From the NCBI GenBank assembly GCA_030530825.1, contig JAUMUF010000001.1, positions 124,001 to 188,000 on the forward strand: a stretch of 64,000 bases of DNA. The letters run 5' to 3'. This DNA comes from a bacterium (GTDB lineage Bacteria > Patescibacteriota > Saccharimonadia > Saccharimonadales > Saccharimonadaceae). A model generated the notes under the pieces. That model ran no database searches. It was not told the origin of the DNA and saw nothing but the letters and a program-made list of their open reading frames with translations. Positions 40,850 through 60,849 of the stretch are shown piece after piece. The position numbers and the translations under genes were made by a program. Each line of letters begins with the position of its first letter. Within the stretch, counting starts at the first letter, position 1.

Positions 40850-42065
40850 TTTTACTCCTTATTAGTACTAATAATTCACGCGCCACCACTTGATTTTCGC
40901 GATAATAAATCAAGTCTTGCGGTTTAACGCGCAGAAATTCTTTTCTATTATACCCGAGTTGAGGTAAAAAGTCAACAAGTGGAAGGTGAGAAAATTCACC
41001 ATTTTGCGTTTTCCAGGCGGGGACGGCGATACAGATCTGTGTGCCTTCTGGGATTTGGCTGGCGAGATTTTTCAAAAAGTTGGAAATTATGCGGTTACAG
41101 TTCTCGCGCACCTCAGTTAATTTTTTAGGCGAAGGTGGTGCCGAGAAGGGCTGGCCAAGATAAGTTTCGCAAATTACACTAGTGAGATTGGGCGCAAAGT
41201 CCCATTTTTGCTCGGTTGCGTCTGCGGTGAAAATATCGCCGATTTGGCCGTATGGTCGAAAAGTTTCTTCAACCCAGCGCGAATTCTCTTTCGAAAATTC
41301 TACCATTTTTTCACTCAAGTCTGTACCATGTGCGGTCAAGCCTTTTAGCGCCGCCTCTTGAAGAACTGTGCCGGTTCCACAGAAAGGATCCAAGATCTCG
41401 AAGTTCTTGCCTTCAATTTTTTGATTTTTCGAAAGAATTATCTGCGGTTGGCTGTCGCCGAGAGCAAGATTGAGCATCGTCTGAGCGAGTTTTGGCGGAA
41501 GCATTCCGACAAAGGCATCTCGCTTGGGGCGATTTTGATCTCGACGAGCGTAGGCGGTTATATTTTGCGCGCCTTCACTGAGTGCTACTACTGTTTTTTG
41601 CCCGCCACGGACGGCGAGAATTTCGATTTTTTTATCGCTCAAACCGAGCTTGTTGTTGTGCGAAACTGCCGTCGAAAGTGCTGAATCCTTACTCGAAATC
41701 ACTCGCACACTGACGCCTTTTTCTCGAAGTTTAGATTTGATAATTGTGCCAGTTTTGGCTATGTCCGCCCCTCGCGCTAATAAGCCGTAGGCGGAGATCC
41801 CGAGAGTAATTTTACCTGTTGTGTTGGCAAAATCTCGCTCAAAGGCACTTACGATTTTTTTTGAGATTTCTCGCCAGTCTGTAGAGTTGACCTCAAAGGC
41901 GACCTCGCCGCTCTTTAAGATTGAGCCAAAATGAGAAATGTTGAGTTTTTCCGCATCTACCAAGGCGGCGTGCGTACCGAGAATGCGGATGTTTTCTCCT
42001 CCAAAAACACTTTCAAGTTCCGCGATTCCGATGGCGGGCTGTCGCCCCAAGATTGCAATTTTCAT
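40836..42065 (-). CDS. Trm11/TrmG10-like tRNA guanosine methyltransferase
   Basis: 409 residues. N-terminal half (1-180) has the THUMP-like arrangement of tRNA/rRNA modification enzymes; the C-terminal half is a SAM methyltransferase with DPFCGTGTVLQEAALKG (motif I) preceded by KRDAFVGMLPPKLAQTMLNLAL, as in Trm11-type m2G10 enzymes. The catalytic DPPY motif is replaced by ETYLGQP, so substrate or activity may differ. Leaderless promoter on the minus strand. Overlaps rpmA. Confidence 0.7.
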   Translation of the reverse strand: MKIAILGRQPAIGIAELESVFGGENIRILGTHAALVDAEKLNISHFGSILKSGEVAFEVNSTDWREISKKIVSAFERDFANTTGKITLGISAYGLLARGADIAKTGTIIKSKLREKGVSVRVISSKDSALSTAVSHNNKLGLSDKKIEILAVRGGQKTVVALSEGAQNITAYARRDQNRPKRDAFVGMLPPKLAQTMLNLALGDSQPQIILSKNQKIEGKNFEILDPFCGTGTVLQEAALKGLTAHGTDLSEKMVEFSKENSRWVEETFRPYGQIGDIFTADATEQKWDFAPNLTSVICETYLGQPFSAPPSPKKLTEVRENCNRIISNFLKNLASQIPEGTQICIAVPAWKTQNGEFSHLPLVDFLPQLGYNRKEFLRVKPQDLIYYRENQVVARELLVLIRSKNVKS

Positions 42066-42071
42066 TCTTAA

Positions 42072-42077
42072 ATTATA
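42072..42077 (-). promoter_or_regulatory. -10 element of the leaderless methyltransferase gene
   Basis: TGATATAAT on the minus strand; six bases separate it from the ATG at 42065. Confidence 0.65.
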
Positions 42078-42115
42078 TCACGCACAGATAGTTTTAACAA
42101 ATTTTATAAAAACCC

Positions 42116-42145
42116 TTGACGTTTAGGGGGGGGGTATGGTAAAAT
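42116..42145 (+). promoter_or_regulatory. Promoter with a G9 tract in its spacer (candidate phase-variable)
   Basis: TTGACG at 42116-42121 and TAAAAT at 42140-42145 (TGG ahead) are 18 bases apart. Nine consecutive G (42126-42134) fill the middle of the spacer. Loss of one G would give the optimal 17-base spacing; gain would weaken it. This is the classic design of slipped-strand phase-variable promoters. Confidence 0.7.
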
Positions 42146-42186
42146 AAAAGCACAAGTATTTTATAAAAATATGAAAAGGAGATGAA

Positions 42187-42594
42187 ATGAAAAAAATATT
42201 TTTGCCGATACTGGCTATGATATCGCTTTTTGGTATGGTCGGCGCGTTTTCAGCCTCTGCTTTCGCAGATAGGGTTCCAGATGGTGAGGAATGTGATGTC
42301 CTTGTTCGGTTTGCTCGAGTTGCTCGCCAATGGGATGATGAAAAGTCTGAATGGGTTGAGAAGGGTGTAATTGACTTCGAGACAAAGGTATTTAAGAGTC
42401 GAGGTAACAGAAAAGAAGATCTGGCCAAGATTGAAGAAATGATTAAAGAGCAAAAGATTTATTATTTTGGGGTTGAAAACTTTTTCTTTGATGAAAAATC
42501 TGAAATAAAACAGCCGGAGGAGTGTGACGAGTATCAAGTTTACACCGTTTTGCCCTCCAAAATAGAGCTTAATGAATCCAACCTTCCCCAGTAG
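42187..42594 (+). CDS. Small secreted protein
   Basis: 135 residues with a clear signal peptide (KKIFLPILAMISLFGMVGAFSASAFA, cleavage probably before Asp28). The mature part is charged, with two cysteines (ECDVLV and EECDEYQ) that could form a disulfide. No family recognised. AAAGGAGATG gives the ribosome site. It lacks its own anchor; the next small gene, eight bases on, encodes an APDTG-type tail. Confidence 0.7.
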   Translation: MKKIFLPILAMISLFGMVGAFSASAFADRVPDGEECDVLVRFARVARQWDDEKSEWVEKGVIDFETKVFKSRGNRKEDLAKIEEMIKEQKIYYFGVENFFFDEKSEIKQPEECDEYQVYTVLPSKIELNESNLPQ

Positions 42595-42602
42595 GAGTTT
42601 AT

Positions 42603-42836
42603 ATGAATGATCAAGTAAAAACTAATGAACAACTTTTCAAAGAATTAAAACTCAAGACTCTGGTTTGTAAAGAGAAACCCCCAGAAGCTAAAGACGCTCC
42701 CGTTGAAGCTATTAAGACCGTAGTGGAAAATATTTTGGGCGCGCCAGACACTGGCTTTTCAGCAAATCAAATTACTGGAATTGGTTTAATCGGTCTAAGT
42801 TTGGCAATTCTATTGGCTATCTTTATTAAAAAATAA
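42603..42836 (+). CDS. Small protein with APDTG motif and C-terminal membrane segment
   Basis: 77 residues, no signal peptide. C-terminal APDTG (47-51), a hydrophobic segment ITGIGLIGLSLAILLAIFI and KK resemble a sortase sorting signal. Either it is a tail-anchored protein or it was once the 3' end of the preceding gene: its frame is open back to 42576, overlapping the upstream coding end. SD AGGAG with five-base spacing supports separate translation today. Confidence 0.6.
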   Translation: MNDQVKTNEQLFKELKLKTLVCKEKPPEAKDAPVEAIKTVVENILGAPDTGFSANQITGIGLIGLSLAILLAIFIKK

Positions 42837-42843
42837 CTGTAGC

Positions 42844-42883
42844 ACGCCCAAAACGCTCGAGATTTTTTGTCTTGGGCGTTTTA
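42844..42883 (+). terminator. Terminator
   Basis: ACGCCCAA (42844-42851) pairs with TTGGGCGT (42872-42879), followed by TTTAC and further T. Confidence 0.65.
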
Positions 42884-42933
42884 CTTTTCTTATAAAATTT
42901 GCTAAAATAGAGAAAAGAATTTAAGAGGAAAAT

Positions 42934-44283
42934 ATGGATAAAAATGTAACTTTGGAAAAAATCGTCAGCCTGGCTAAGCGTCGAGGCTTTATCTGGCAGG
43001 GTAGCGAGGTTTATGGCGGAATGCGCGGAACTTGGGACTATGGTCCGCTTGGATTGTCTCTCAAGCGTAAAATTATGAATGAATGGTGGCAGTTTTTTGT
43101 TGATAATCGCAGTGATATGTACGGTGTTGATGCGGCGATTATTATGAACCCTAAAACTTGGCACGCCAGTGGTCACGCGGCGACTTTTGCCGATCCTTTG
43201 GTTGAAGATCTCAAGACTGGTGAGCGATACCGCGCAGACCACCTCCTTAAAGATAATGGGATTGATGCGGAAGGCCTTTCTAACGAAAAAATCACCGAAA
43301 TCATCCGTGAAAAAGGCTTGAAATCGCCCAAAGGCAACGATCTTAGCGAGGTCCGCAGTTTTAATATGATGTTCCAGACCAATGTTGGTGCCGTTGTTAA
43401 TGACAACTCTGTGGCGTTTCTTCGTCCTGAAACAGCCCAAGGTATTTTCACCAATTACAAAAATGTGGTTGACGCGTTTTATCCAGATCTGCCATTTGGC
43501 TTGGCGCAACAGGGCAAGGCGTTTCGAAACGAGATTTCTCCGCGTGATTTTGTCTTCAGGAGCCGTGAGTTTGAGCAAATGGAGATCGAATATTTTGTCC
43601 ATCCAGAAAAGTGGGAAGAGAATTTTGAAGGTCTGCTCGCCGACACGCTCGAATTTTTGACTGAAAAGATGGGGCTTAAGAAAGAAAATCTTCATCTTCT
43701 CGAAGTTCCAGAAGAAGACCGCGCACACTACTCCAAGCGAACGGTTGATCTTGAGTATAATTATCCGATCGGCAAGGAAGAGTTGATGGGAATTGCTTAC
43801 CGTACGGATTTTGATCTTGGCAATATTGAGCGAGCGAGCGGTAAGAATATGGCGTATGTTGATAAAAATTCTAAGGAGAAATTTATTCCGCATGTGATTG
43901 AGCCGAGTTTTGGCGTTGAACGATTACTGATGGCTGTCTTGACGGAAAGTTATCGCGAGATTGAAACTGATGGCAAAATTCGCACATTTTTGGCTTTGCC
44001 TGAAAACTTGGCGCCAGTTAAAATCATCGTCGCGCCACTCCTTAAAAATAAGGAGAATCTGGTTGAAGAGGCTCGCCGAGTTTATGCGATTTTGAAGAAA
44101 AAATACGGCAATGTTGAACTTGACCTCAGCGGAAAGGTTGGTAAAGTTTATGCCAAAGCGGACGAGATTGGTGTGCCGCGCGTGGTGGTGATTGACTTTG
44201 ATACGATTGAGGGCGACGGGCTTGTGAGTGTCAGGAATCGCGATGATGCGAGCCAGATTCGTGTGGAATTGGAAGAGATTTAG
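42934..44283 (+). CDS. glyS: Glycyl-tRNA synthetase (alpha2 type)
   Basis: 449 residues, class II homodimeric GlyRS. Start DKNVTLEKIVSLAKRRGFIWQGSEVYGGMRGTWDYGP; motif 2 RNEISPRDFVFRSREFEQMEIE; motif 3 EPSFGVERLLMAVL; C-terminal anticodon domain from about 340. This is the type of archaea, eukaryotes and some bacteria, not the alpha2beta2 form. Extended -10 TGCTAAAAT and SD AGAGGAAA precede it. The methyltransferase ATG follows its stop directly. Confidence 0.95.
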   Translation: MDKNVTLEKIVSLAKRRGFIWQGSEVYGGMRGTWDYGPLGLSLKRKIMNEWWQFFVDNRSDMYGVDAAIIMNPKTWHASGHAATFADPLVEDLKTGERYRADHLLKDNGIDAEGLSNEKITEIIREKGLKSPKGNDLSEVRSFNMMFQTNVGAVVNDNSVAFLRPETAQGIFTNYKNVVDAFYPDLPFGLAQQGKAFRNEISPRDFVFRSREFEQMEIEYFVHPEKWEENFEGLLADTLEFLTEKMGLKKENLHLLEVPEEDRAHYSKRTVDLEYNYPIGKEELMGIAYRTDFDLGNIERASGKNMAYVDKNSKEKFIPHVIEPSFGVERLLMAVLTESYREIETDGKIRTFLALPENLAPVKIIVAPLLKNKENLVEEARRVYAILKKKYGNVELDLSGKVGKVYAKADEIGVPRVVVIDFDTIEGDGLVSVRNRDDASQIRVELEEI

Positions 44284-45069
44284 ATGGAGAAAATCACTTC
44301 TGCGCAAAATCCATTGATCAAAAAACTTGTTCGACTGAATGAAAAGCAGAGTTTTAGAAGTCGTGAAGGTTTGACAATTTTAGATGGGGTGCATCTTTGC
44401 AGTGAGTATTTTTCTAAGATTGGCGTTCCAGAAATTTGTGTCGTAGCGGAAAATTCCAAGAGTCAAGAAGTATCTGAGATTATTGAAAAATGTCGTTCTG
44501 CTGGTGTAAAAACAGTTGAGATTACGCAAAGTCTTTTTCGAAAAATCTCACCAGTTATTGATGGCGTTGGCATAGTTTTTGTGGCTAAAACACCACAAAG
44601 TCAAGGTCCGATTGAAACTCAAAAAGAAACCTTAATCTTGGAAAATATCCAAGATCCTGGCAATCTCGGAACGATTTTGCGCAGTGCGGCTGCGTTTGGT
44701 GTTGAACAAATTATTTGTTCGCGTGGGGCTGTTTCTGCGTGGTCGCCCAAGGTGCTTAGAGCAGGGATGGGCGCGCATTTTAGCCTGCAGATTTTTGAAG
44801 ATCGCGACTTGGCTCAAGATATTCAACTTATAGATGTTCCAATTTTTGCCACTAGCCTTGAAGCCAAGAAAAGTATTTTCGAAGAAGATTTAAGCGGTAG
44901 TAAGGCATGGATTTTTGGTAACGAGGGCAAGGGTGTTTCGAAAGAGATTCTTGATTTGGCGGATAAAAAAGTAATTATTCCGCACGATCCAAAGGTGGAG
45001 AGTTTGAATGTGGCGATGGCGGCAAGTGTGTGTTTGAGCGAGGCTTGGCGACAGAAAGATGCTAAGTAA
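44284..45069 (+). CDS. SpoU (TrmH)-family RNA 2'-O-methyltransferase
   Basis: 261 residues. N-terminal substrate-binding domain (1-100) and SPOUT knot domain with the three family motifs: NIQDPGNLGTILRSAAAFGV, AWIFGNEGKGVS and IIPHDPKVESLNVAMAASVCL. Acts on tRNA or 23S rRNA ribose; exact target not determinable. No gap after glyS, so they are translated together. Confidence 0.88.
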   Translation: MEKITSAQNPLIKKLVRLNEKQSFRSREGLTILDGVHLCSEYFSKIGVPEICVVAENSKSQEVSEIIEKCRSAGVKTVEITQSLFRKISPVIDGVGIVFVAKTPQSQGPIETQKETLILENIQDPGNLGTILRSAAAFGVEQIICSRGAVSAWSPKVLRAGMGAHFSLQIFEDRDLAQDIQLIDVPIFATSLEAKKSIFEEDLSGSKAWIFGNEGKGVSKEILDLADKKVIIPHDPKVESLNVAMAASVCLSEAWRQKDAK

Positions 45070-45084
45070 ATTTATGGCTGCAAT

Positions 45085-45113
45085 TTGCTAAAACATTTTG
45101 CTTATGATAAAAT
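45085..45113 (+). promoter_or_regulatory. Leaderless promoter of the CYTH gene
   Basis: TTGCTA at 45085-45090, 17 bases, TAAAAT at 45108-45113 with TGA ahead; six bases to the ATG at 45120. Confidence 0.7.
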
Positions 45114-45119
45114 AGAGTT

Positions 45120-45674
45120 ATGAAAACTGTTATCGTTAAGGCAAAAGTTAAAAATAAGATTGAGTTTATGAAGAATATCCAGGCTGCAGGACATGATTTT
45201 GGCCAGCCCATATTTCAAAATGATCGGATTTTTTTGCCGAGAAATCGTCAATTGAATGAGAATTTTCCTAAAATGATTGTGCGTACAGAGATGGTTGACC
45301 CTAAGCGAAAGCCGTGGTTTCAACTTATCCAAAAGCGCCATATTGCGGCTGAAAATGTCGATTTGATCCATATGACACCAATTTTGAACTACTCAGAAAC
45401 GGCACATATTGTCCAACAACTTGGCTTTGAACTTCAGGCTGAGGTTATGCGCAATCGCCAGAAACTTCAGGTTGAAGACACTATTTTTTACCTTGATGAA
45501 GTTGAGGGATTGGGCACATATATCAAGCTCGAGCGAGAAGTTAAAAAGGGCGACAATACTGAGACTGTCCGTCAAGAACTCTGGGATGTGCTTAGAGTTT
45601 TAGGTATTGATGAGGATGCTAATGAGCCTAACACCTATACCTCTCAATTAGTTAAGAGAAATAGCGGTCGATAA
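45120..45674 (+). CDS. CYTH-like domain protein (class IV adenylate cyclase / triphosphatase fold)
   Basis: 184 residues. The arrangement KTVIVKAKVKNK ... RTEMVDP ... LIQKRHIAAENVDL ... VEDTIFYLDEVEGLGTYIKLEREV ... ELWDVLRVLGI matches CYTH proteins that bind triphosphates in a tunnel. The N-terminal ExExK metal motif is not conserved: the two Glu are Thr3 and Ile5, with Lys7 kept. Catalysis is therefore doubtful or altered. It has its own leaderless promoter. Confidence 0.65.
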   Translation: MKTVIVKAKVKNKIEFMKNIQAAGHDFGQPIFQNDRIFLPRNRQLNENFPKMIVRTEMVDPKRKPWFQLIQKRHIAAENVDLIHMTPILNYSETAHIVQQLGFELQAEVMRNRQKLQVEDTIFYLDEVEGLGTYIKLEREVKKGDNTETVRQELWDVLRVLGIDEDANEPNTYTSQLVKRNSGR

Positions 45675-45910: not shown

Positions 45911-48900
45911 ATGAAAATTAAACAAATTTCTAAGAAGAAAATCTTCCGGATTTTTTCTGCTATTGCAATTTTTTTGGTGGCGGGAAGCTTTCTGCTTAAT
46001 GCTGCTGTGACGAAACTTAAGAGTAGTGCGGCATCTACGACTTTCAGTTCTGGTATTGGTCACTATTTTGGCGGTTATACAATACCTTATATCACTGGAG
46101 CTGATGGGTCTGTTGCTTATTGCTTAAACCATGCGTTGCTTTTTCCGACTGGGCAGAATTTTAACGGAGTGGACGGATCAGATGTCTATAATTCTCCAGA
46201 GGTGAAGGGTATCCTTTATTATGGATATGCAGGCGCTGGCCATAATGAATTAATGCAAAAACATGGACTTGGAGCACACGATGCTCGGTTGGCTACCCAG
46301 TTGGCTATCTGGAAGTATGGCCGACGAACTGGAAGTATCCCTGGAAATCAAGGTATTAGCCCGGATATTAATACTGGTAATGTTCAGATCGATAACTATA
46401 TAAATGAGCTTATTGGTAAGACCTATAATGGTAACACTGCTACTCCTGTGAGTGTAACTCAAAATGTGTCTACTCGAGTTGATGGAGACAGGCAAGTTTC
46501 GGATATTATAAGTCTTGGAGATGGATTAAATCATGGAAACGTGCAAATTACTTATTCTGGAGATAATGGCCAGGCTCGACAAGATAACATTTCGCCGACA
46601 TCATTTACTGTTTCTCTGCCGAAAGATTTTAGTGGAAATGTTGTCGCTACTATAACTGGTCCTGCTGGAAAAAACTTTACGCCAGTTGTATGGACTAGTG
46701 GGAATGGTGCTGTTCAGAATTTAATTTCAAGTGGCGGAATGGTTAATTCCTCAGCAAACACAGCATCTACTAATATAAATTTTGACGGGGTTGCATATGC
46801 ATCTGAAGTTTCTTATAGGATTAAGAAGACTGATGTTAATGGCGTTGCTAAGCAGGGTGCTATTTTTGAAGTAGCAACAGATGAAAACTTCACTCAAATT
46901 ATTAAAACACTAACTTCTAGGGATGATGGATATACTCCGGTTCAAGAATATACTTTTCCTGAATCTCCGCGATCAGCTGCGTTAAGATCAATTACGCTAT
47001 ATGTTCGAGAAAAAGCCGCACCGACGGGTATGACTAAAAGTGACGAGGTCAAAAGAATTGTTCTCAATCGAAACCAGGAGAGTGTTTCTGAGATTTCTTA
47101 TGAAAATCAATATAAGCCCATCACTCTAAAAATTGTCAAAAAAGATGAGTCTGGCCAAGTTGTTCCAAATGTTAGATTTATAGTCTCTGAGTTTTCGGAT
47201 TTCTCCAAGGGTACTATATCTATTATTACTCGAGGAAATGGTGAAGCTTCTGTGGATCTTCCATATAATACAGACAGAAAGACTCTCTATGTTCGCGAAG
47301 AGTCTGTTCCTGATCATCTTGTTCTTTCGACAGAAGTTAAAAGTGTTCGAATAGAAGCAGGCCAGACTGGAGTTGTTGAATTCGTGAACCAGTTCAAGAC
47401 TTCTAACTCTATAGCTAAAATCATCAAAAAAGATGCATCTGGTTCACTTATTCAAGGTGTTGTATTTGAAATAGCTACTAACCAACAATTTACTGATGCC
47501 GAAGAATTTACAACTAATGCACAAGGTGAAATTTCTAAAACATTTACAGTAGCCGGCCTTCAACAATTCCCAACTGTTTATGTTCGAGAAAAATCAACCC
47601 TTGCACACCTAATTAAATCGAATGAAGTTAAAACTGTAACTCTTCGTGCTGGTGAAACTTCATCTGTTGAATTTGTGAACCAGTTCAAAGGCGCTCTGGC
47701 GAAAATTGTCAAGAAAGATGCCAGCAATCGAGCTATTCAAGGTGTTCGATTCGAGATTGCAACAAATCCGCAATTCACCAATTCAGAAACTTTGACTACT
47801 GGTGTAAATGGTGAAATCTCCAAGAGCTTCCAGATCACAACCGTAACTCCTCCGACTATCTATGTCCGAGAAGTGTCTGCTCCGAGCTACCTCGTAGTTG
47901 ATAATCGAGTTCAAAGCAAACCACTTGTAATTGATGGAGCTGTAGATTTTGAGTTCGTAAACCAGTTCAATCAGGCGCCTATAACTATTCGAAAAACTGA
48001 CGAAAAGGGTAAAAACATCGCTGGCGTTGTATTTGAACTTTCGGAAACTCGCGACTTTGCTCGAATTTTCGACACAGTTACAACTAACGCTCAGGGTTTG
48101 GTGAATAAAACATACCCGACAACTCAGCTAACAAAAGTTCTTTACATTCGAGAAAAATCTGTACCTTCACACTTGGTTCTTTCGAAAGAAATTAAAGAAA
48201 TTACCCTCGCACCAAATACAACTCCGACCGTGACATTCGTCAATGATTTTGTTGAGCGAGATGTCGAGCTTTCGAAGAGTGATTTGTCGTCTGCTGATCC
48301 AATTGAAGGTGTGACTTTGACAATTTATGATGCAAGTGATGAAAATAACCGAACTAAGATTTACGAAAATATCACCAATAAAGACGGAAAACTTCCTGGA
48401 TTGAAGTTGAAGCCAGGTAAATATAAATTTATCGAAACTCACGCCACAATCGGCTACAAGATCAATCCAAACCCTCACTTCTTTGAAGTTTTGGAAGATG
48501 GGACAATTCTCGGTTCAACGGTTATGACTGACGAGCGTGAAGAATATGAATTCGAGATAGATAAAGTCGACAACAAGGGAAATAAGGTTCGTGGTGTTGT
48601 ATTCGAAGCTAAAAATAAATTAACTGGCGAAATTTTGACTGCAACTACTGATGAAAATGGTGTAGCAAAATTCAAAGGTATTTGGGCAGACTATGAAATT
48701 AAAGAAAAATCTGCTCCAGAAGGATATATTAAGGATGAAAATACCTATGTCCTTCAACTTAAAAAAGATGGAACTTACGAAAGAATGAAAGTCGTTAACA
48801 ATAAAGTTGAAGCGCCAAATACTGGTGCCGAAAACGGAGGAATCTTGCCAATTTTGGTAAGTGTTGGCTCAATTCTCTTTGCGGGAACAGCTTTCCTCAT

Positions 48901-48916
48901 TAAACGGCGAGCATAA
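45911..48916 (+). CDS. Thioester-domain adhesin with seven SpaA-like repeats and APNTG tail
   Basis: 1001 residues. N-terminal membrane/signal segment (about 11-33). Residues 45-165 match a thioester domain: Cys71 in AYCLNHALLFPTG and Gln130 in TQLAIWKYGR are placed to form the internal Cys-Gln thioester that can bond covalently to host surface amines. From about 301 come seven prealbumin-like (SpaA/Cna B) repeats of about 95 residues starting I/VKKxD, with YVREK near each end; isopeptide cross-links are expected. Sorting signal APNTG (968-972), hydrophobic segment and KRRA. Inferred role: covalent attachment to a host. Confidence 0.85.
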   Translation: MKIKQISKKKIFRIFSAIAIFLVAGSFLLNAAVTKLKSSAASTTFSSGIGHYFGGYTIPYITGADGSVAYCLNHALLFPTGQNFNGVDGSDVYNSPEVKGILYYGYAGAGHNELMQKHGLGAHDARLATQLAIWKYGRRTGSIPGNQGISPDINTGNVQIDNYINELIGKTYNGNTATPVSVTQNVSTRVDGDRQVSDIISLGDGLNHGNVQITYSGDNGQARQDNISPTSFTVSLPKDFSGNVVATITGPAGKNFTPVVWTSGNGAVQNLISSGGMVNSSANTASTNINFDGVAYASEVSYRIKKTDVNGVAKQGAIFEVATDENFTQIIKTLTSRDDGYTPVQEYTFPESPRSAALRSITLYVREKAAPTGMTKSDEVKRIVLNRNQESVSEISYENQYKPITLKIVKKDESGQVVPNVRFIVSEFSDFSKGTISIITRGNGEASVDLPYNTDRKTLYVREESVPDHLVLSTEVKSVRIEAGQTGVVEFVNQFKTSNSIAKIIKKDASGSLIQGVVFEIATNQQFTDAEEFTTNAQGEISKTFTVAGLQQFPTVYVREKSTLAHLIKSNEVKTVTLRAGETSSVEFVNQFKGALAKIVKKDASNRAIQGVRFEIATNPQFTNSETLTTGVNGEISKSFQITTVTPPTIYVREVSAPSYLVVDNRVQSKPLVIDGAVDFEFVNQFNQAPITIRKTDEKGKNIAGVVFELSETRDFARIFDTVTTNAQGLVNKTYPTTQLTKVLYIREKSVPSHLVLSKEIKEITLAPNTTPTVTFVNDFVERDVELSKSDLSSADPIEGVTLTIYDASDENNRTKIYENITNKDGKLPGLKLKPGKYKFIETHATIGYKINPNPHFFEVLEDGTILGSTVMTDEREEYEFEIDKVDNKGNKVRGVVFEAKNKLTGEILTATTDENGVAKFKGIWADYEIKEKSAPEGYIKDENTYVLQLKKDGTYERMKVVNNKVEAPNTGAENGGILPILVSVGSILFAGTAFLIKRRA
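46813..48800 (+). repeat. Seven SpaA/Cna B-type repeats, period about 95 codons
   Basis: Repeat starts lie near residues 301, 405, 501, 596, 690, 784 and 877. Repeats 3 and 4 are closest to each other (KKDAS ... IQGV.FEIA). The last two diverge toward the SpaA consensus (GVTLTIYDA; GVVFEAKNKLTGE). Confidence 0.85.
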
Positions 48917-51873: not shown

Positions 51874-51879
51874 TATAAT
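51874..51879 (+). promoter_or_regulatory. -10 element of ftsE-ftsX
   Basis: TGTTATAAT upstream of ftsE, with the hexamer ending 11 bases before the ATG at 51891. A TTG in frame at 51879 lies inside the hexamer and is rejected as start. Confidence 0.6.
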
Positions 51880-51890
51880 TGAAAGTGATT

Positions 51891-52574
51891 ATGATTTTAT
51901 TGGATCGTGTAACTAAAGTTTATGGAAAATCTTCACACCCTGCGGTGAATAGGGTGAGTCTTCATATTAAGCCTAAAGAATTTGTGATTTTGGTCGGTAC
52001 TTCTGGTGCTGGTAAGTCAACTTTGCTTAAACTTCTAACTAGAGAAGAAAAACCGACCAGCGGCAAAATCGTTGTTGGTGGTATAGATTACGAGAAATTA
52101 AACGATAAAGATATTCCACTTTTGCGCCGTAGAATTGGTGTGATTTTTCAGGATTTCAAACTTTTGCCCAATAGGACAGTTTTTGAGAATGTGGCTTTTG
52201 CGCTTGAAATTGCCGGAATGACCAATCAGGAGATTAAGGCGACTGTACCCAAGGTGATAAAATTGGTTGGACTGAGTGGCAAAGAGGGTAATTTTCCGCA
52301 TCAATTGAGTGGTGGAGAGCGTCAGCGGGTGGCAATTGCGCGTGCGCTTGTTCGTCAGCCCAAGATTTTGATTGCCGATGAGCCAACAGGAAACCTCGAC
52401 CCTAAGCACAGTTGGGATATTATTCGACTTCTTGAAAAAATCAATTCTTACGGAACTACGGTTCTTCTAACTACACACAATGTCGAAATTGTTAACAAAT
52501 TGAAGCGACGCGTGATTACTCTTAACGGGGGTAAGGTGACGCATGACCAATCAGAAGGGAGTTATAAACAATAA
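51891..52574 (+). CDS. ftsE: Cell division ABC ATPase FtsE
   Basis: 227 residues from ATG 51891 (MILLDRVTKVYG). Walker A GTSGAGKSTLLKLL, Q-loop VIFQDFKLLPNRTVFENV (typical FtsE), signature LSGGERQRVAIARAL, Walker [18 protein letters not shown]-loop TTHN. With FtsX it does not transport but transmits a signal to peptidoglycan hydrolases at the septum. Stop and ftsX start share a base. Confidence 0.95.
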   Translation: MILLDRVTKVYGKSSHPAVNRVSLHIKPKEFVILVGTSGAGKSTLLKLLTREEKPTSGKIVVGGIDYEKLNDKDIPLLRRRIGVIFQDFKLLPNRTVFENVAFALEIAGMTNQEIKATVPKVIKLVGLSGKEGNFPHQLSGGERQRVAIARALVRQPKILIADEPTGNLDPKHSWDIIRLLEKINSYGTTVLLTTHNVEIVNKLKRRVITLNGGKVTHDQSEGSYKQ

Positions 52575-53554
52575 TGGCTCAGAAAAAGCAAAATTCAAAA
52601 GTTATAATGGAACAAAAACGACGCAGGCGGGCGGTTTTAACCTTTGGGCGTATTCTGAAATACGGAGGCAACAGTTTTTTAAGAAACGCTTGGCTATCTG
52701 TAGCGGCAACTGCCGTGATGACAATTACATTGCTTATTGTTTTTAGTTCTTATTTTGCGGGTTCCGTCTTGAAGAACACAGTTGATGGTTTCAGGGATAA
52801 GGTTGACATGTCTATTTACCTTAAAAAGGGCGCTAAAGATGAAGATGTCAAAAAAATAGAGGCTTCCCTAAAAAAATTAACTACCGTTAAGGAAGTTTCT
52901 TATGTTTCAGCAGAACAAGCCAAAGAAAAATTGGCGGTAGACAATGCGGATATTGAGGGTTTTACAGAGGCCCTTTCTGAGTCTGGCAATGAATTCTTCG
53001 GCAGATTCAATGTTAAGATGGTTGATATTGGTAACACATCAGAACTCAAGAATTTTGTAGAGAGCGACAAAACAATCAAGAGTAATCTTAATCCAAATCA
53101 CCCTCCAACATACGCAAGCAAGAGAAAAGAGGTTATAGACAATCTCTCTAACAGTTTTAATTTTGTTGAAAAGGTAGGCCTTGTTGCTGCTGTAATCTTT
53201 ACTGTAATTTCTGGTCTTATAATCTTTAACACTATTAGGATGGCTATTTTTAACCGTAGAGAAGAGATCTATATGATGAAACTCATCGGGGCAAATCGCA
53301 GTTTTATCAGTGGTCCGTTTTTGGTAGAGTCTGTAATTTGTGGAATTTTGGCTTCGATTTTTGCGACAGGGCTTGGTTATGCTATCGTAAATCTTGCTCG
53401 TCCAAAACTAGAGACATACGGTATTGCAATTTCGGCAGATTTTGGTCAAATTGGCTTCTATCTATTGGTAGTCTTGCCTATTTTGATGCTTATTGGTGCG
53501 GTGATTGGAGTGCTTTCTTCGATATTTGCTACAAGAAAATACCTGAAAATTTAA
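52574..53554 (+). CDS. ftsX: Cell division protein FtsX
   Basis: 326 residues. Cytoplasmic basic N-terminus, first membrane segment (about 38-62), an extracellular domain (about 65-190: VDMSIYLKKGAKDEDVKKIEASL ... VSYVSAEQAKEKL), then three segments with NRREEIYMMKLIGANRSFISGPFLVESVI, the FtsX signature. It would bind a hydrolase with a coiled coil outside the membrane; the next gene encodes exactly such a protein. Confidence 0.93.
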   Translation: MAQKKQNSKVIMEQKRRRRAVLTFGRILKYGGNSFLRNAWLSVAATAVMTITLLIVFSSYFAGSVLKNTVDGFRDKVDMSIYLKKGAKDEDVKKIEASLKKLTTVKEVSYVSAEQAKEKLAVDNADIEGFTEALSESGNEFFGRFNVKMVDIGNTSELKNFVESDKTIKSNLNPNHPPTYASKRKEVIDNLSNSFNFVEKVGLVAAVIFTVISGLIIFNTIRMAIFNRREEIYMMKLIGANRSFISGPFLVESVICGILASIFATGLGYAIVNLARPKLETYGIAISADFGQIGFYLLVVLPILMLIGAVIGVLSSIFATRKYLKI

Positions 53555-53562
53555 CAAAACTA

Positions 53563-53591
53563 TTGTCAAAGGAGGGTGGATATGGTAAAAT
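53563..53591 (+). promoter_or_regulatory. Promoter of the CHAP hydrolase
   Basis: TTGTCA at 53563-53568, 17 bases, TAAAAT at 53586-53591 with TGG ahead. Confidence 0.7.
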
Positions 53592-53617
53592 GGTTATGTA
53601 AAAAAGGAAAAACAAAA

Positions 53618-54796
53618 ATGACAAAGAATAAAATTTTAATAAACAGCGGAATTTCTGTTGCGATGGCGGTTGCCAGTGTTGTTGCAATCGCGGTTCAAAT
53701 CAATAAGCCTGCTACCGCAAGGACAGCAGAGGAGATTGGCGCAGAGATTCAGCAGATTCAAACCCAAATAGATCAGGCCCAAAAGCATGCGAGTGAACTT
53801 CGTTCTAAATCTGATGGCCTCAAAGCAGAACTTGACAGTGTCGCATCTCAGAGAACGGCTCTTGAAGGTCAAATTAAGGTAACTAAAGCGCAGTACGAGA
53901 AACTTCTTCTTGAAATTAAAGAAACAGAAGAAAATATCGAGAAGAACCGCAAAACTCTTGGCTCTCTTCTCGCTAAAATGTCAATAGAAGATGATCTGTC
54001 TCCGATTGAACGTATAGCGGGTAGTGACAATATCTCTAGCGCACTTGATAATTTTGAGTATCAAAGTTCTGCCAAGACCAAACTTACAGAGCGCGTTAAA
54101 CTGATTAAGAAGCAGAAAAAGACCCTCGAAGAAAAACGAGATCAGGTCAAGAAAACTCTTGAAGATCAACAGAAATTTGAGCGAGAACTTCAGTCCAAAA
54201 TCGCTGAGCAAAACCGCTTAATCCAGATTACGCAAGGTGAAGAAGCAGAATATAATAAATATGCTGCGGAGAAAAATTCGCAAAAGGTTAAACTCCAAGA
54301 AGAGCAAAGGCGAGCATTTGAAGAGGCTCAAAGGCGTGCACGTCAGGCGACTGGTGGAAGTTTTAGCCTTAGCGGCTCGGACTCTGGCGGTGGCTATACT
54401 TGGGGTGATGGCTGTTGGGTCGGAAATGACCTCTCCAGCAACGGGCCAAATGGTGGTGTAGATCCACTCGGATACGGTTGTAGGCAATGTGTGAGTTATA
54501 CAGCGTTTAAGGCTCTTCAAGTGCATGGCGTTAAAGCCCTTTGGTGGGGAAATGCTAATATGTGGCCGGCAAGTGCTCGATCTCGTGGATTTAGGACAGG
54601 AACAACACCAAAGGCTAACTCTGTTGGAGTGCAATATATCGGCTACTATGGCCACGTTGTATGGGTAGATAGTGTAAACCCTAATGGAACAGTTAATATC
54701 AGCCAGTACAATTATCCAGTTAACGGAAGATGGGGCATGTATAGTACGATGACTGTTTCGGCGTCTGCATTTCAAGAGTATATCTACTTCGACTAA
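53618..54796 (+). CDS. Secreted coiled-coil CHAP peptidoglycan hydrolase (PcsB-like)
   Basis: 392 residues from ATG 53618 (SD AAAAAGGA); an upstream in-frame ATG at 53582 lies inside the promoter. Signal peptide about 1-34 (ISVAMAVASVVAIAV ... ATA). A long coiled coil (about 35-250) precedes a Ser/Gly linker and a CHAP domain with Cys291 (GCRQCVSYTAF) and His346 (YGHVVWVDSV). In streptococci FtsEX controls PcsB, which has the same architecture; adjacency to ftsEX supports the same partnership here. Cuts peptidoglycan peptides or amide bonds. Confidence 0.88.
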   Translation: MTKNKILINSGISVAMAVASVVAIAVQINKPATARTAEEIGAEIQQIQTQIDQAQKHASELRSKSDGLKAELDSVASQRTALEGQIKVTKAQYEKLLLEIKETEENIEKNRKTLGSLLAKMSIEDDLSPIERIAGSDNISSALDNFEYQSSAKTKLTERVKLIKKQKKTLEEKRDQVKKTLEDQQKFERELQSKIAEQNRLIQITQGEEAEYNKYAAEKNSQKVKLQEEQRRAFEEAQRRARQATGGSFSLSGSDSGGGYTWGDGCWVGNDLSSNGPNGGVDPLGYGCRQCVSYTAFKALQVHGVKALWWGNANMWPASARSRGFRTGTTPKANSVGVQYIGYYGHVVWVDSVNPNGTVNISQYNYPVNGRWGMYSTMTVSASAFQEYIYFD

Positions 54797-54801
54797 TTTT
54801 G

Positions 54802-54834
54802 AAATAATCGTCAGAAATGGCGATTATTTTTTTC
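54802..54834 (+). terminator. Terminator of the CHAP hydrolase
   Basis: AAATAATCG pairs with CGATTATTT, followed by a T run. Confidence 0.75.
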
Positions 54835-54864
54835 TAAAATCTACAAACCTTGAGCGATTTATGC

Positions 54865-54870
54865 TATAAT
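54865..54870 (+). promoter_or_regulatory. -10 element of the ctp-sialylation operon
   Basis: TTATGCTATAAT: the hexamer ends seven bases before the ATG at 54878, so the five-gene transcript is nearly leaderless. Confidence 0.65.
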
Positions 54871-54877
54871 TATATAC

Positions 54878-56050
54878 ATGATAAGAGATGGGAGAGAGAA
54901 AAATTCCTTCAATTTGGCTGTAGTTATTGCGGCGATGGTTGTCGGGATTTTCATAGGTATTTATAGGTTTGAGATTCTGCAGTTAGCGGCTTCAGTTTTT
55001 GGTAGAAAGGTAGACAAAAAGCCACTTAATCTTAGTTCTGTTCAAGAAACCTACAATCAGATTTTTGCTAATTTTGATGGTAAGATTGACCGTGATAAAT
55101 TGATTGATGGCGCCTCCAAAGGGCTTGTTGAGGCTTTAGGTGATGAACACACAGATTTTATGACACATCAAGAGTATGATGAGTTCGAAAAGCATCTCTC
55201 TGGGGATGTTGGTGTTGGAATTGGTGTTGAATTGGGGCTTCGAAATAAAGTTCCTACTGTAATCAGAGCGCTGAGAGGTAATCCTGCGATTGCTGCGGGC
55301 ATTCGTGCTGGGGATATAATTACGGAAGTCAACGGTGAGAAAATTTTAGATAAGTCTATTAAAGAAATCACAACCAAGATTAAGGGCGAGGATGGAACCA
55401 CCGTTAAGATTAAAGTTATTAGAGGCGGAGAAGAGAAAGAATTCTCGATTATTCGTCAAAAAATAAATAATCCAAGTGTGGAGTTGGATTTTGATGGGTC
55501 CAATGCAATTTTGACTATCTCTCGATTTGATAGTGAAACGGGTTCTTTGGCGAAGAAATTCGCACAAGAAATTAAAGAGAAGGGTTCTTCTAGAGTAATT
55601 TTGGATCTTCGTGGGAATGGTGGCGGATATGTGAGTGCTGCTCAGGCGGTGGCGAGTTTGTGGTTGCCGCAAAATTCTGTGATAGTTAAGCAAAAAACTG
55701 GTGATAAAATAACGGATGAGACTAGGGCTACGGGCGGAAATATATTGGATGGAATTGAGACTGTTGTGCTTGGAGATGAGGGGAGTGCTAGCGCTAGCGA
55801 GATCGTGATTGGTGCGCTAAAATCTCATAAAAAAGCCAGATTTATAGGTGTAAAAACTTATGGAAAAGGGAGTGTTCAGTCAACATTTAAGACATCTAGA
55901 GGTGTTGTAAAGATCACGATCGCTAAGTGGTTCACTCCAGATGATAAGAATATCGACAAGCAAGGCATTCAACCTGATAAAGAGGTTAAAATATCTGAAG
56001 AAGATAGAGATTCTGGTCGTGATACACAGATGGAAGAGGCTAAAAAATGA
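54878..56050 (+). CDS. C-terminal processing peptidase (S41, CtpA type)
   Basis: 390 residues. N-terminal membrane anchor (about 11-35), helical region, PDZ domain (about 105-185: VGIGVELGLRNKVPTVIRAL ... AGIRAGDIITEVNGEK), then the S41 domain with the catalytic Ser in GSASASEIVIGAL and Lys in TYGKGSVQSTF. Faces outward; trims the C-termini of envelope proteins. Its stop overlaps the sialyltransferase start (ATGA). Confidence 0.92.
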   Translation: MIRDGREKNSFNLAVVIAAMVVGIFIGIYRFEILQLAASVFGRKVDKKPLNLSSVQETYNQIFANFDGKIDRDKLIDGASKGLVEALGDEHTDFMTHQEYDEFEKHLSGDVGVGIGVELGLRNKVPTVIRALRGNPAIAAGIRAGDIITEVNGEKILDKSIKEITTKIKGEDGTTVKIKVIRGGEEKEFSIIRQKINNPSVELDFDGSNAILTISRFDSETGSLAKKFAQEIKEKGSSRVILDLRGNGGGYVSAAQAVASLWLPQNSVIVKQKTGDKITDETRATGGNILDGIETVVLGDEGSASASEIVIGALKSHKKARFIGVKTYGKGSVQSTFKTSRGVVKITIAKWFTPDDKNIDKQGIQPDKEVKISEEDRDSGRDTQMEEAKK

Positions 56051-56973
56051 GATTTTTATATATATGCCACACGGTCTATCATCTAATGATGACTATCGCA
56101 AGAATGAACAGGGTCGACCGCAATTCTGTCTGTCTTGTTGATACTATAGCCGATGCGGAAGAATTTGCTAAGAGGCTGGAGCGGACAGAATATTTCGAGT
56201 TTATTAGGGTTTTGCGTGCGGCAGATTTTGATATTGATGGTGAATATCCTGAAGATTTTAAGACTAAAAACTCTGATTTTTTCAAAAAATTTGATAAAAT
56301 TGGTGTGTATAATGATGATACGTATATTTCTCACTTCTTATATCAGCAAGGGCTAAGATATACTCTTTTTGAAGATGGTTACAATTACTTTCAGTTTCCT
56401 TTTGATTATCTGTCGCATTATAACTGGTGGAGCAGACAACGACCTAATTATAAATATTCACTAGTGAGAGGTCATAGCGAGACTTGCGATAGGATAGAAA
56501 TTAATAGTTTTGATGGGGTGGAAAAAGACGATCGTTACGAAAAAATGGTTGAAGTACCACAGGCGGAAATTTTTTCACGAATAGATAATGAGAAATTAAA
56601 TATTTTATCTACTGTCTTTCCTTTTGATAGGGTACGCATAAAAAATAATTCTACATTGATATTGACTCAACCTCTTTTTATGGATGGAATAATGAAAACA
56701 GAAGAGGAGCAGAAGCAATATTTTTATAAATTATGTAAAGAAAACTCTAAATTTTTCAAATCGGTTTATTTTAAGCCTCATCCAAGAGATAATATAGATT
56801 ACCCTCATATGAAGCGAGTTTATTTATTACCCAAGAATATTCCGCTCGAAGTTATGGCGCTACTGAACGAAAATTTTAGATTCAAAAAAGGAATTACACA
56901 TTCATCTACCGCCATGGATTTTGCTGACTTTATTGATGAGAAAATAATTTTGGAGGATTTAAAAAATGTCTAA
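56047..56973 (+). CDS. Sialyltransferase (GT52 / polysialyltransferase-like)
   Basis: 308 residues. Starts RFLYICHTVYHLMMTI, a pattern of GT52 lipooligosaccharide sialyltransferases. The three motifs of bacterial sialyltransferases are present: EDG at 109-111 (general base region), KPHPRD at 243-248 (HP motif, CMP binding) and HSSTAM around Ser286-Ser287 (S/ST motif). Cytoplasmic, no membrane segment. The adjacent gene supplies the CMP-sialic acid donor, strongly supporting the call. The acceptor (glycolipid, wall glycan or glycoprotein) is unknown. Confidence 0.75.
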   Translation: MRFLYICHTVYHLMMTIARMNRVDRNSVCLVDTIADAEEFAKRLERTEYFEFIRVLRAADFDIDGEYPEDFKTKNSDFFKKFDKIGVYNDDTYISHFLYQQGLRYTLFEDGYNYFQFPFDYLSHYNWWSRQRPNYKYSLVRGHSETCDRIEINSFDGVEKDDRYEKMVEVPQAEIFSRIDNEKLNILSTVFPFDRVRIKNNSTLILTQPLFMDGIMKTEEEQKQYFYKLCKENSKFFKSVYFKPHPRDNIDYPHMKRVYLLPKNIPLEVMALLNENFRFKKGITHSSTAMDFADFIDEKIILEDLKNV

Positions 56974-58237
56974 ACCAATTTGTATTATTACCGCAAGATC
57001 TGGATCTAAAGGGTTGCCGCATAAAAATATGCTATTTTTTGCTGGAAAACCGCTACTGGTTCACTCTATAGATGCCGCTATAGGCTCTGGGTTTTTTGAT
57101 GCTGAAAATATTTATGTTTCAACTGATTCCGAAAAATACAAGAAGATTATCGAGGCTCTAAGACCAGGGGTTAAGGTTGTTATCAGAAAACCTGAACTGG
57201 CATTAGACACAACGACTTCTTTCGAGGTCCTTGAGGATTTTTTGGCAGGTTTTGAAGATGATCAGATATTTTTGCTTCTTCAGCCCACCTCTCCGTTAAG
57301 AGCAGCAGATGACATCAAGAATGCTTTTAAAATGCTCGAAGAAGGTGCTGGAGCGGTGGTTAGTTTTTCTGCTTTTGATAAGGGTTTGGATTTTTATACT
57401 AAACTAGACAAACAAGGTCGTCCTGTAGATTTGATTGGAAGCCAAGGCAATTACCGTAGGCAAGACAAAGAGGTTGTTTATATACCAAATGGCAGTATTT
57501 ATTTAACTAACAAAAAAGATTATTTGAGAGAGAAAACCTTCTTTTATGGAGAAACGCGCGCACTGATTACGCCACCACAGAACTCTGTTGATATTGATAA
57601 TATTGATGATTTTCGAAAAGCGATAGGGATGTTAGATTTTGATTTTTTGAATGAGAAAAATCATAGAAGTAGGCTCTTGAGGCCGATCGTTTCTAAAGTC
57701 CACGATGCCGCCAATTTGGTGATTTGTGACGAGAGAAATGATTTTTTGCGGCTGAGCGGTTTTAGGAAAATATTTTGTGGCGATTTGACTACGGAGGAGA
57801 TTTTAGAGACTTTGCCAAAACAAGTTTCAGTATATGATAAGGTCGTGGTTGCGCTTGGCATTAATGATTTAATCAGAGGGGTTGACTCGGACAAATTTGC
57901 TCAAAATTATAAAAGCATATTAGATAAGATTTCTGGAGAGAGTTCAAAAATTGTAGTTATCCCAATTTTGCCGGTTCTGTTTAGGGCGGAAATAAAGAAT
58001 GAAACTATAGATGTCTATAACCAGAAACTCCGCGACCTGTGTCAAGAATTGGGCGCGGAGTATACTGAAACTCCTGAGAGTATCTTCGAAGATGGTGAAT
58101 TGAGTGTTTGTTTTACAGAAGATGGGCTTATGCTCAATAAAGATGGTCGTCGAATAATTCAAGATTTATTCAGTGATAAAAAAGTGATAAAAAATAATTT
58201 TAAGGAGAAGTATGACAGAAATTACAGAAAATGTTGA
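56966..58237 (+). CDS. neuA: CMP-sialic acid synthetase with degenerate SGNH esterase domain
   Basis: 423 residues. N-terminal 1-225: acylneuraminate cytidylyltransferase with ITARSGSKGLPHKNM (CTP loop), LLLQPTSPLRAADDI and PNGSIYLTN; it joins CMP to sialic acid or a close nonulosonate. C-terminal 245-420: SGNH-hydrolase fold, as in NeuA of group B Streptococcus, which removes O-acetyl groups. Here the nucleophile position in block I reads CDERND (Glu256 instead of Ser) and the histidine block reads DGLMLN (Met389 instead of His), while GIND is kept. The esterase is probably inactive. Overlaps both neighbours. Confidence 0.82.
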   Translation: MSKPICIITARSGSKGLPHKNMLFFAGKPLLVHSIDAAIGSGFFDAENIYVSTDSEKYKKIIEALRPGVKVVIRKPELALDTTTSFEVLEDFLAGFEDDQIFLLLQPTSPLRAADDIKNAFKMLEEGAGAVVSFSAFDKGLDFYTKLDKQGRPVDLIGSQGNYRRQDKEVVYIPNGSIYLTNKKDYLREKTFFYGETRALITPPQNSVDIDNIDDFRKAIGMLDFDFLNEKNHRSRLLRPIVSKVHDAANLVICDERNDFLRLSGFRKIFCGDLTTEEILETLPKQVSVYDKVVVALGINDLIRGVDSDKFAQNYKSILDKISGESSKIVVIPILPVLFRAEIKNETIDVYNQKLRDLCQELGAEYTETPESIFEDGELSVCFTEDGLMLNKDGRRIIQDLFSDKKVIKNNFKEKYDRNYRKC

Positions 58238-59294
58238 AAATTCGAAAGAAGAACAAAATATAGAAACAGTGGAAGAAAATATGGAGTCTGCCGAGATGAA
58301 AGATTCTGCAGATAATCAAGAGGAAAAGACAGATATTTTCCAGTGGGCCAATTTGACTGACGGCGTTAAAAATGATCTCGATGTGGAATTTTTCCTCTTC
58401 AATAAGAATTTTACACCTTTCACAACGCGCTTTTCAAGCGAATTGAATTCACAGATTAAGCCTCTTTTCTTGTTCGATATGATAAATTTTGTTAATATGG
58501 GCGCTGGTACTGGGCTTAGCGTGCGTGATTACGAGATGGATGGCGGAAGTTCCAAGGATGTCTTACTTCGAACAGAGGTCGAGAAAGTCCGAAACGCAGA
58601 TATTTTGCTCAATATTATCGAAACGCAATACCCTGATATTGTTGAATTTTCAGAGAACGAGCACGGATTTAAGCGGATGAAGGGGATTGTAGCGCGTTTT
58701 ACCGGACGAAATGGTGAGAAATTTTATGTGGCTAAGCAGATTGCGCAGGCCCAAGTTTTGGCTGGCGCTACGGCGTGGGAATTTCGAGACGGCAAATTTG
58801 CTGCTTTCGAGCCAGAATTTGGCCTAAAAATCCAGCCCGACAATCAAGTGCTAATTGTTGGCGGAGATATTTTTGCTTTCAATCCTTCTAAGTTCGAAAA
58901 ACTTTTCAATTACGATTATAAAAAACAAGTGATCGCTGATAAAAAAGTTGTCGAAATTGAAAAATCTTACAAATTGAGTTTTCCGGACGGCTTGGATCTT
59001 CAAACGATGGTTCGAGAAAAGCGAAAGATCGCTTCGAAACTCGAAAAGATGGAAAATATTGGTGAAATCTCTCAAGAAAAAGTGGTTGAATATGCCGATG
59101 AGATGCAACTTGAACTTATGACCGACGATGATGGATCGATAATTATTATGGATGCGAGTGACCTCGATATGTTTGTTAACCTAATAAATGAGGACTATAT
59201 TGTAAGTGAAATTACTGGCAGGCGATATGAGATTAAGAGTAAAAAACTCCTTGATGAGCCAGAAGGTGAACCGCCAAGGATGGTGGGTGAGTAG
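58212..59294 (+). CDS. DUF4868 (KwaB-like) protein
   Basis: 360 residues. An acidic, low-complexity N-terminus (1-42) leads to a domain whose C-terminal half has the DUF4868 pattern: IFAFNPSKFEKLFNYDYKKQ, YKLSFPDGLDL, YADEMQLELMTDDDGSIII, LINEDYIVSEITGRRYEIKSKK. DUF4868 defines KwaB of the Kiwa anti-phage system, which normally works with the membrane protein KwaA; no KwaA-like gene is adjacent. It overlaps neuA by 26 bases (SD AAGGAG inside neuA) and is followed by a helicase gene. Defence or DNA-related function is inference. Confidence 0.7.
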   Translation: MTEITENVENSKEEQNIETVEENMESAEMKDSADNQEEKTDIFQWANLTDGVKNDLDVEFFLFNKNFTPFTTRFSSELNSQIKPLFLFDMINFVNMGAGTGLSVRDYEMDGGSSKDVLLRTEVEKVRNADILLNIIETQYPDIVEFSENEHGFKRMKGIVARFTGRNGEKFYVAKQIAQAQVLAGATAWEFRDGKFAAFEPEFGLKIQPDNQVLIVGGDIFAFNPSKFEKLFNYDYKKQVIADKKVVEIEKSYKLSFPDGLDLQTMVREKRKIASKLEKMENIGEISQEKVVEYADEMQLELMTDDDGSIIIMDASDLDMFVNLINEDYIVSEITGRRYEIKSKKLLDEPEGEPPRMVGE

Positions 59295-59304
59295 AATCTA
59301 GAAA

Positions 59305-60849
59305 ATGAAACAAAATCTCGCTCTCGAAATAATGCTTTCTGGCCAAAATGTTTTTTTGACTGGGGCGGCTGGGTCTGGTAAGACTTTTACGCTCAACCAG
59401 TTTATTAAACTTGCTAAAAATTCAGGCAAGAAGGTGAGCGTGACGGCGACAACTGGGTTAGCTGCCACGCATCTTGGTGGTAATACCATTCACGCGTGGA
59501 GTGGTATGGGCGTCAATGATTTTTTGTACAAAAATTTTGCTGAAAAACTCTCCAAATCGCGCGCCGACATCATTAAATCAACAGATATTTTGATTATCGA
59601 TGAGATTTCGATGCTTCATGATTTTCGGCTTGATATGGTTGACGAGATTTGTCGGACAGTTCGACAGAATTTCGAAGCACCGTTTGGTGGGATTCAGGTT
59701 ATTTTGTGCGGAGATTTCTTCCAGTTACCTCCAATTAATCGCGCGGGAAGTAAAGAGGGCGGCTTTGTGGTTCATTCTAACGCTTGGCATGAGGCGGAAT
59801 TTTCAATCTGTTACTTGGAAGAAAATCACCGTCAATCGGATGAAAATTTGACGGAAATTCTCAATGCTATGCGCTCTGGTGATGTGCGTAGGCGTCACGC
59901 CGAGGCTTTGCTCGAGCGACTTAATGTTGTGCCGGATGATCTTGAAAATCTAACAGAACTTCATACTACCAACATCGATGTCGATATTATTAACGATGAA
60001 AAACTTTTTAATCTTGAGGGTGAAGAAAAGACTTTCGCACAGACTTCTACTGGAGCGCAAAATTATGTCCAGACACTCCAGCGATCAGTTCTTGCGCCAG
60101 ATCTATTGAGGCTCAAAAAGGGTGCTCTTGTGATGGCTGTGAAAAATGCGCAAAATCGACAATATGTCAATGGATCGATTGGGCGAGTGATTGACTTTGA
60201 GCCGATGACGGACTATCCGTTGGTTGAATTCCAGAACGGGCGGACAGTTTTAGTTGTGCCCGACTCTTGGGAGATGCGCGATGGCGATAAAAAGCGGGCT
60301 TCAATTACGCAGATTCCGCTTCGTCTTGCTTATGCGATCACTGTTCATAAATCTCAGGGGATGACTTTAGACGCGGCGCGGATTGATCTAAGCAAGGCGT
60401 TCGCTGAGGGCATGGGCTATGTGGCGCTATCTCGTGTGCGCGATTTGGAAAATTTGTTTTTGCTTGGAATTAACAAGACTGCATTGAAGGTGAGTGAAGA
60501 AGCACTTATTTTGGATGAAGAATTTCGAAAAAGGTCGCTTGAAGCGGAGAGAACATTCTCTGATTTACTCGAAGTTGCCGAGAAGCGTGCCAAAAATCAA
60601 CTTGAAAAAGCAGAAAAATCATCTCCAAAATCCAACTCTTGGGCAGAAAAACTTGCTCGGATGCGAGAAGAATATCCCAACGCCTATCGCCCGTGGAAAT
60701 ACGCCGACGATGCCGTGCTTCAAGAGGTTATTTTTCAAAAAGGCAGATTGGATGAAGATTTGGTAGCCGAACTTAGTCAAAAATTAGGTCGTCACAAAGG
60801 CTCAATTATCGCCCGCGTCAAAAAACTTTACGGCGACGATGCTGTATAA
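59305..60849 (+). CDS. Pif1/RecD-like superfamily 1B helicase
   Basis: 514 residues. Walker A GAAGSGKTFTLNQF near 18-31, motif Ia VTATTGLAATHLGG, Walker B ILIIDEISMLHDF, motif III GDFFQLPPI, the UvrD-type C-terminal box RLAYAITVHKSQGMTLD and GYVALSRVR. It is the Pif1 pattern: 5'-to-3' DNA helicase resolving structured DNA. The C-terminal 120 residues add a charged helical region and an HTH-like end (LVAELSQKLGRHKGSIIARVKKL). Only ten bases after the DUF4868 gene. Confidence 0.9.
   Translation: MKQNLALEIMLSGQNVFLTGAAGSGKTFTLNQFIKLAKNSGKKVSVTATTGLAATHLGGNTIHAWSGMGVNDFLYKNFAEKLSKSRADIIKSTDILIIDEISMLHDFRLDMVDEICRTVRQNFEAPFGGIQVILCGDFFQLPPINRAGSKEGGFVVHSNAWHEAEFSICYLEENHRQSDENLTEILNAMRSGDVRRRHAEALLERLNVVPDDLENLTELHTTNIDVDIINDEKLFNLEGEEKTFAQTSTGAQNYVQTLQRSVLAPDLLRLKKGALVMAVKNAQNRQYVNGSIGRVIDFEPMTDYPLVEFQNGRTVLVVPDSWEMRDGDKKRASITQIPLRLAYAITVHKSQGMTLDAARIDLSKAFAEGMGYVALSRVRDLENLFLLGINKTALKVSEEALILDEEFRKRSLEAERTFSDLLEVAEKRAKNQLEKAEKSSPKSNSWAEKLARMREEYPNAYRPWKYADDAVLQEVIFQKGRLDEDLVAELSQKLGRHKGSIIARVKKLYGDDAV

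Follow-up and report, generated by a model that had tools for sequence, protein, structure and literature searches.

Animal cells are coated with sialic acid, a sugar, and bacteria are known to evade immunity and to manage adhesion by sialylating their own surfaces. In group B Streptococcus, NeuA is a synthetase fused to an SGNH O-acetylesterase. Single gene clusters in Tenacibaculum (L066), Shewanella (L080) and a member of the Bacteroidales (L117) encode NeuB, NeuC, NeuA and a GT52-family glycosyltransferase, and this clustering indicates that GT52 plus NeuA is a functional combination that recurs where Neu5Ac-type sugars are handled. Nontypeable Haemophilus influenzae carries out no sialic acid synthesis; it scavenges the host sugar, and SiaB and sialyltransferases decorate its LOS (PMC6509186).

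Here, we compare these systems with a locus in a 64,000-nucleotide stretch of DNA (the window) from a probably parasitic bacterium with a reduced genome. The locus encodes NeuA together with a homologous GT52 protein, as the L066, L080 and L117 clusters do, but those clusters also encode NeuB and NeuC, which are absent from the present genome, and their NeuA proteins (227-229 amino acids) are without the SGNH extension found here. In domain order, synthetase followed by SGNH, the present NeuA resembles that of group B Streptococcus, although its SGNH domain has neither the catalytic Ser nor the catalytic His. The pair also resembles H. influenzae SiaB and the LOS sialyltransferases LsgB and Lic3A in combining a CMP-Neu5Ac synthetase with a sialyltransferase without de novo synthesis (PMC6509186); however, the H. 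influenzae system includes a TRAP importer and a catabolic nan cluster and uses LOS as the acceptor, whereas neither a TRAP importer nor an acceptor glycan locus was identified in the present genome. The gene pair is real and unusual, of a known biochemical kind in a lineage whose other sampled members lack it. No description of surface sialylation in Patescibacteria was found in the literature searched. We think it likely that the pair is a two-gene cassette gained by horizontal transfer, which adds scavenged sialic acid to a presumed acceptor.

Table 1. Features of the gene run at positions 54878-60849 of the window.
Feature	Coordinates	Strand	Family evidence
ctp protease (S41, PDZ)	54878..56050	+	Pfam/NCBIfam, S41/PDZ 2.3e-39
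GT52-family glycosyltransferase, probable sialyltransferase, 308 aa	56047..56973	+	Glyco_transf_52 PF07922 9.4e-19, PF07388 9.8e-9
CMP-N-acylneuraminate synthetase domain (NeuA), N-terminal part of 423-aa protein	56966..57640	+	CTP_transf_3 PF02348 3.8e-29
SGNH/GDSL-hydrolase domain, C-terminal in NeuA 423-aa protein	57641..58237	+	Lipase_GDSL_2 PF13472 5e-12
KwaB-like (DUF4868) protein	58212..59294	+	KwaB PF16162 4.3e-11
Pif1/RecD-like helicase	59305..60849	+	PIF1 PF05970 2.7e-38

The glycosyltransferase and the synthetase

The product of the GT52 gene is a probable sialyltransferase by its sequence. It scores 68.1 bits against PF07922 (cut-off 26.1), and the three sialyltransferase motifs that the sequence-only reading had recognized in it are indeed present and in order: EDG at E109, KPHPRD at 243-248 and SST at S286. 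Of the 42 ORFs in the window with 150 or more amino acids, this is the only one with the spaced EDG/HP/SST motif set. Five independent GT52 proteins, all from other phyla, share its motif columns, and the catalytic Glu, the His-Pro and the Ser of SS/T are invariant across the six-sequence alignment. These five relatives are located among genes flanking neuA, and the four that were scanned singly score above the PF07922 cut-off. Common to GT38, GT52 and GT80 enzymes are an acidic motif that provides the catalytic base and an HP motif that serves the CMP leaving group (PMC5517516). A profile of the six sequences reaches the Pasteurella GT80 enzyme PM0188 at the HP(R) and SS motifs, a match (E 0.007) that we take as supportive only. 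Direct sequence searches of the PDB, plasmids, phages, viral contigs and genome contigs returned no close GT52 relatives, and the relatives at hand are so distant (19-26% identity) that the sequence gives no guide to the linkage or the donor.

We modelled the GT52 protein from the six-sequence alignment and found a two-lobed structure (pLDDT 70.9, pTM 0.71); a single-sequence prediction (pLDDT 34) was discarded. Foldseek with this model returned GT-B-type proteins, UDP-GlcNAc 2-epimerases first (E 3e-6), which are general matches that speak to fold class only, and no sialyltransferase was among the best 50 matches. A DALI search with a solved GT38 polysialyltransferase likewise returned 2-epimerases (PMC5517516). 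In our working model, the GT52 protein would be a cytosolic enzyme of the GT-B type.

The downstream gene had been read as a CMP-sialic acid synthetase, and this assignment stands with the addition of a C-terminal SGNH domain. The best PDB sequence matches of its first 225 residues are the NeuA enzymes 6ifd and 1eyr (E ~1e-24). We checked eleven positions of 1eyr, which in the meningococcal NeuA structure serve catalysis or bind the donor, the metal or the sialate, and all 11 are kept (R12, K21, N22, Q104, R165, N175, Y179, F192, F193, D209 and D211). The conserved residues, including Phe192-Phe193 and Arg165, favour an N-acylneuraminate substrate. We asked whether the pair might instead handle legionaminic acid, pseudaminic acid or another CMP-sugar from a bacterial partner. 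PseF is the top NCBIfam model for the synthetase, though the 123 bits fall far short of the 206-bit cut-off; NeuA-PseG fusions, and hence a pseudaminic-type pathway, occur in two further family members; and the surroundings of an epibiont would offer bacterial rather than animal sugars. Against this, the best relatives of solved structure are NeuA enzymes, the synthetase retains Phe192-Phe193 and Arg165 as in the Neu5Ac enzyme, and the related GT52-neuA clusters include neuC and neuB; we therefore regard a sugar other than Neu5Ac as unlikely.

The remaining 198 residues of the NeuA protein form an SGNH domain related to the sialate O-acetylesterase 6njc. The PF13472 match begins at profile position 43, and the GxND block is intact, while alignment with 6njc places DGLML where DGLHL is expected, so that the catalytic His is replaced by Met. 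Neither G[DN]S (the catalytic Ser) nor DxxH (the His) was found anywhere in the protein, and the domain is apparently catalytically dead. If group B Streptococcus NeuA is taken as the model, the ancestral fusion would have removed O-acetyl groups before activation, an activity that has probably been lost here. An SGNH domain without Ser and His, in a genome from which TRAP, SSS and ABC importers are absent, is what would be expected if the cassette were a decaying acquisition that is presently functionless. Yet both frames are full length, their catalytic motifs are intact and their codon usage is resident-like, which makes decay an improbable account of the pair.

Source of the sugar and possible surface display

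We reasoned from targeted family searches of the genome, which comprises 687 kb and is 99.5% complete, with an estimated contamination of 0.01; its size and gene content suggest a saccharibacterial or other patescibacterial epibiont. The NeuB family (PF03102) is absent from the window and from the rest of the genome, and positive controls were detected by the same search. The family of NeuC-type UDP-GlcNAc 2-epimerases (PF02350) is likewise absent from the genome, while control genomes give matches. The lack of a neuB- or neuC-type synthesis gene, claimed earlier for the window, thus extends to a nearly complete genome. Since both families are absent, the sialic acid must be external, and the support for this is good.

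That the sugar is scavenged had been suggested on the same grounds, and the external source bears out this part of the suggestion. Family searches of the genome found no importers of the TRAP (DctM), SSS or ABC (BPD_transp_1) families. The one MFS protein in the genome, encoded (G000:C1, about 475820-476809) adjoining a typA-like translation GTPase gene, matched neither a sialate transporter model nor any other specific model. A cassette accompanied by neither synthesis genes nor a TRAP, SSS or ABC importer raises the question of where the sugar comes from and what carries it. As an observation in its own right, zero BPD_transp_1 ABC importer permeases and a single MFS protein in a genome of this completeness amount to an extreme loss of uptake systems.

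If the pair works as we propose, free sialic acid, presumably Neu5Ac and released by partner bacteria or elsewhere in the habitat, would enter the cell. NeuA would then use CTP to convert it to CMP-sialic acid, and GT52 would act at the cytoplasmic face, transferring the sugar to a glycan or a lipid-linked (glycolipid) precursor. The sialylated glycan or glycolipid would later be exported and displayed, presumably to the benefit of the cell. A broader and more tentative proposal is that a patescibacterial parasite might sialylate its own surface by means of this stripped two-gene cassette, with sugar from animal mucosa or from a bacterial partner and with uptake outside the TRAP, SSS and ABC routes. 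Surface sialylation, if true, would be a direct link between the epibiont and the glycans of an animal or bacterial host. Mimicry of animal glycans, proposed earlier on the sequence alone, is a hypothetical role for such a surface.

Synteny and origin of the five-gene run

The ORF check of the window, together with Pfam and NCBIfam families, confirmed the coordinates and overlaps of all five ORFs, and the Pfam assignments exceed their curated cut-offs. The ctp and GT52 genes overlap by ATGA, GT52 and NeuA by 8 bp, and NeuA and the DUF4868 gene by 26 bp; the Pif1 gene follows after a 10-bp gap. Such tight spacing among all five genes would suit a functional system joining surface sialylation to proteolysis and to DNA handling or defence, and a system of five functions had been put forward on the sequence alone. 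However, all four sister species carry ctp, the kwaB-like gene and pif1 but not the GT52-NeuA pair, and have other neighbours at these genes; ctp occurs in 5/5 genus genomes. Where ctp and kwaB-pif1 share one contig, they lie about 15 kb (G001) and 9.5 kb (G003) apart, and in G004 they are on separate contigs. The gene order of G003 and G004 runs secA, M16 peptidase, murD, further genes, mscL, prfB, further genes, ftsE, ftsX, CHAP and ctp, and continues after ctp with a response regulator, a nuclease (-), a methyltransferase (-) and others. G003 then proceeds through glyS, an rRNA methyltransferase and CYTH to the kwaB-like gene, pif1 and mraW. In the window, the nuclease-to-CYTH block instead stands between the M16 gene and murD, and ctp abuts GT52-neuA, followed by kwaB-pif1.

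Because synteny in the sisters places the block elsewhere and lacks the pair, our data indicate that the five-gene run arose by a block move and the gain of GT52-NeuA, and that the neighbourhood of ctp and kwaB is derived. The cassette was probably inserted behind ctp, at the junction left by the departing gene block. The five-gene order is not conserved in the sister species, and the genes upstream of kwaB-pif1 vary across the family. This synteny is strong evidence against a five-function system, which we rejected and consider highly implausible; the ctp, kwaB-like and pif1 genes are bystanders, linked to the pair by no more than a common transcription unit.

Two further observations concern the rearranged region. 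At positions 40571-45674 and 45911-48916 of the window, the genes that adjoin ctp and kwaB in G003 (nuclease, methyltransferase, glyS, rRNA methyltransferase and CYTH) have moved to between the M16 peptidase gene and murD, and a gene for a large LPXTG-like surface protein is found at the other junction. The ftsE, ftsX, CHAP amidase and ctp genes (51879-56050) keep their synteny as a cluster in those sister genomes that we examined, and the cluster probably represents a division-linked wall hydrolase with its processing protease.

We found the pair to be narrowly distributed. A search of 100 relatives for the GT52 protein found none, and in a phylum-wide sample of 380 genomes the GT52 Pfam family occurs in one and is absent from the 379 others. 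The synthetase is present in one of 394 family genomes sampled and an orthologous NeuA in 0/393 others, a count from which we excluded an unrelated SGNH match and two NeuA-PseG fusions. In the two family members that carry the fusions (L003:1492-3096 and L004:1495-3108), a flippase-like gene adjoins the gene for a cytidylyltransferase that carries a fused PseG-like domain; by their sequence, these fusions are an independent pathway of the pseudaminic type in the lineage. The GT52 gene is A+T-rich (G+C 33%, against 41% for the window), and the codon usage of the pair is resident-like rather than foreign. No donor lineage was identified; a scan with a single short pattern from the NeuA alignment gave at least 80 loci. 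In these samples the pair is lineage-specific, and in the explanation that we favour it was horizontally acquired by one species of Patescibacteria with a reduced genome.

An assembly chimera or contamination might also account for a pair whose GT52 gene departs in G+C from the window and has no relative in the phylum sample. The pair, however, is embedded in a contig of 578 kb, and the resident genes on either side have orthologues in the sister species at about 51-81% identity. It overlaps both neighbours, its codon usage matches that of the residents, and the estimated contamination is very low. Because its location is an otherwise syntenic core locus on so long a contig, contamination is unlikely, and synteny is strong evidence against it; we give an artefactual origin very little credence.

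The DUF4868 assignment of the gene downstream of NeuA was also upheld, and we could add that its product is KwaB-like. The gene is found in 70/121 relatives with a varying upstream gene, while pif1 lies directly 3' of it in 5/5 genus genomes and in several other genera, so that kwaB-pif1 is, by sequence comparison, an old pair with variable upstream neighbours. The product shares the DUF4868/KwaB domain with KwaB of Kiwa, but the present gene is a chromosomal family gene that is paired with Pif1 and has no KwaA. We rejected its identification as Kiwa since it scores 51 bits against the KwaB equivalog NF041623 (cut-off 200) and no KwaA is adjacent: its neighbours in the window are NeuA and Pif1, and relatives show no constant upstream partner. 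The kwaB-like and pif1 genes (58212-60849) may serve DNA maintenance as a housekeeping pair with kinship to the DNA-binding subunit of Kiwa.
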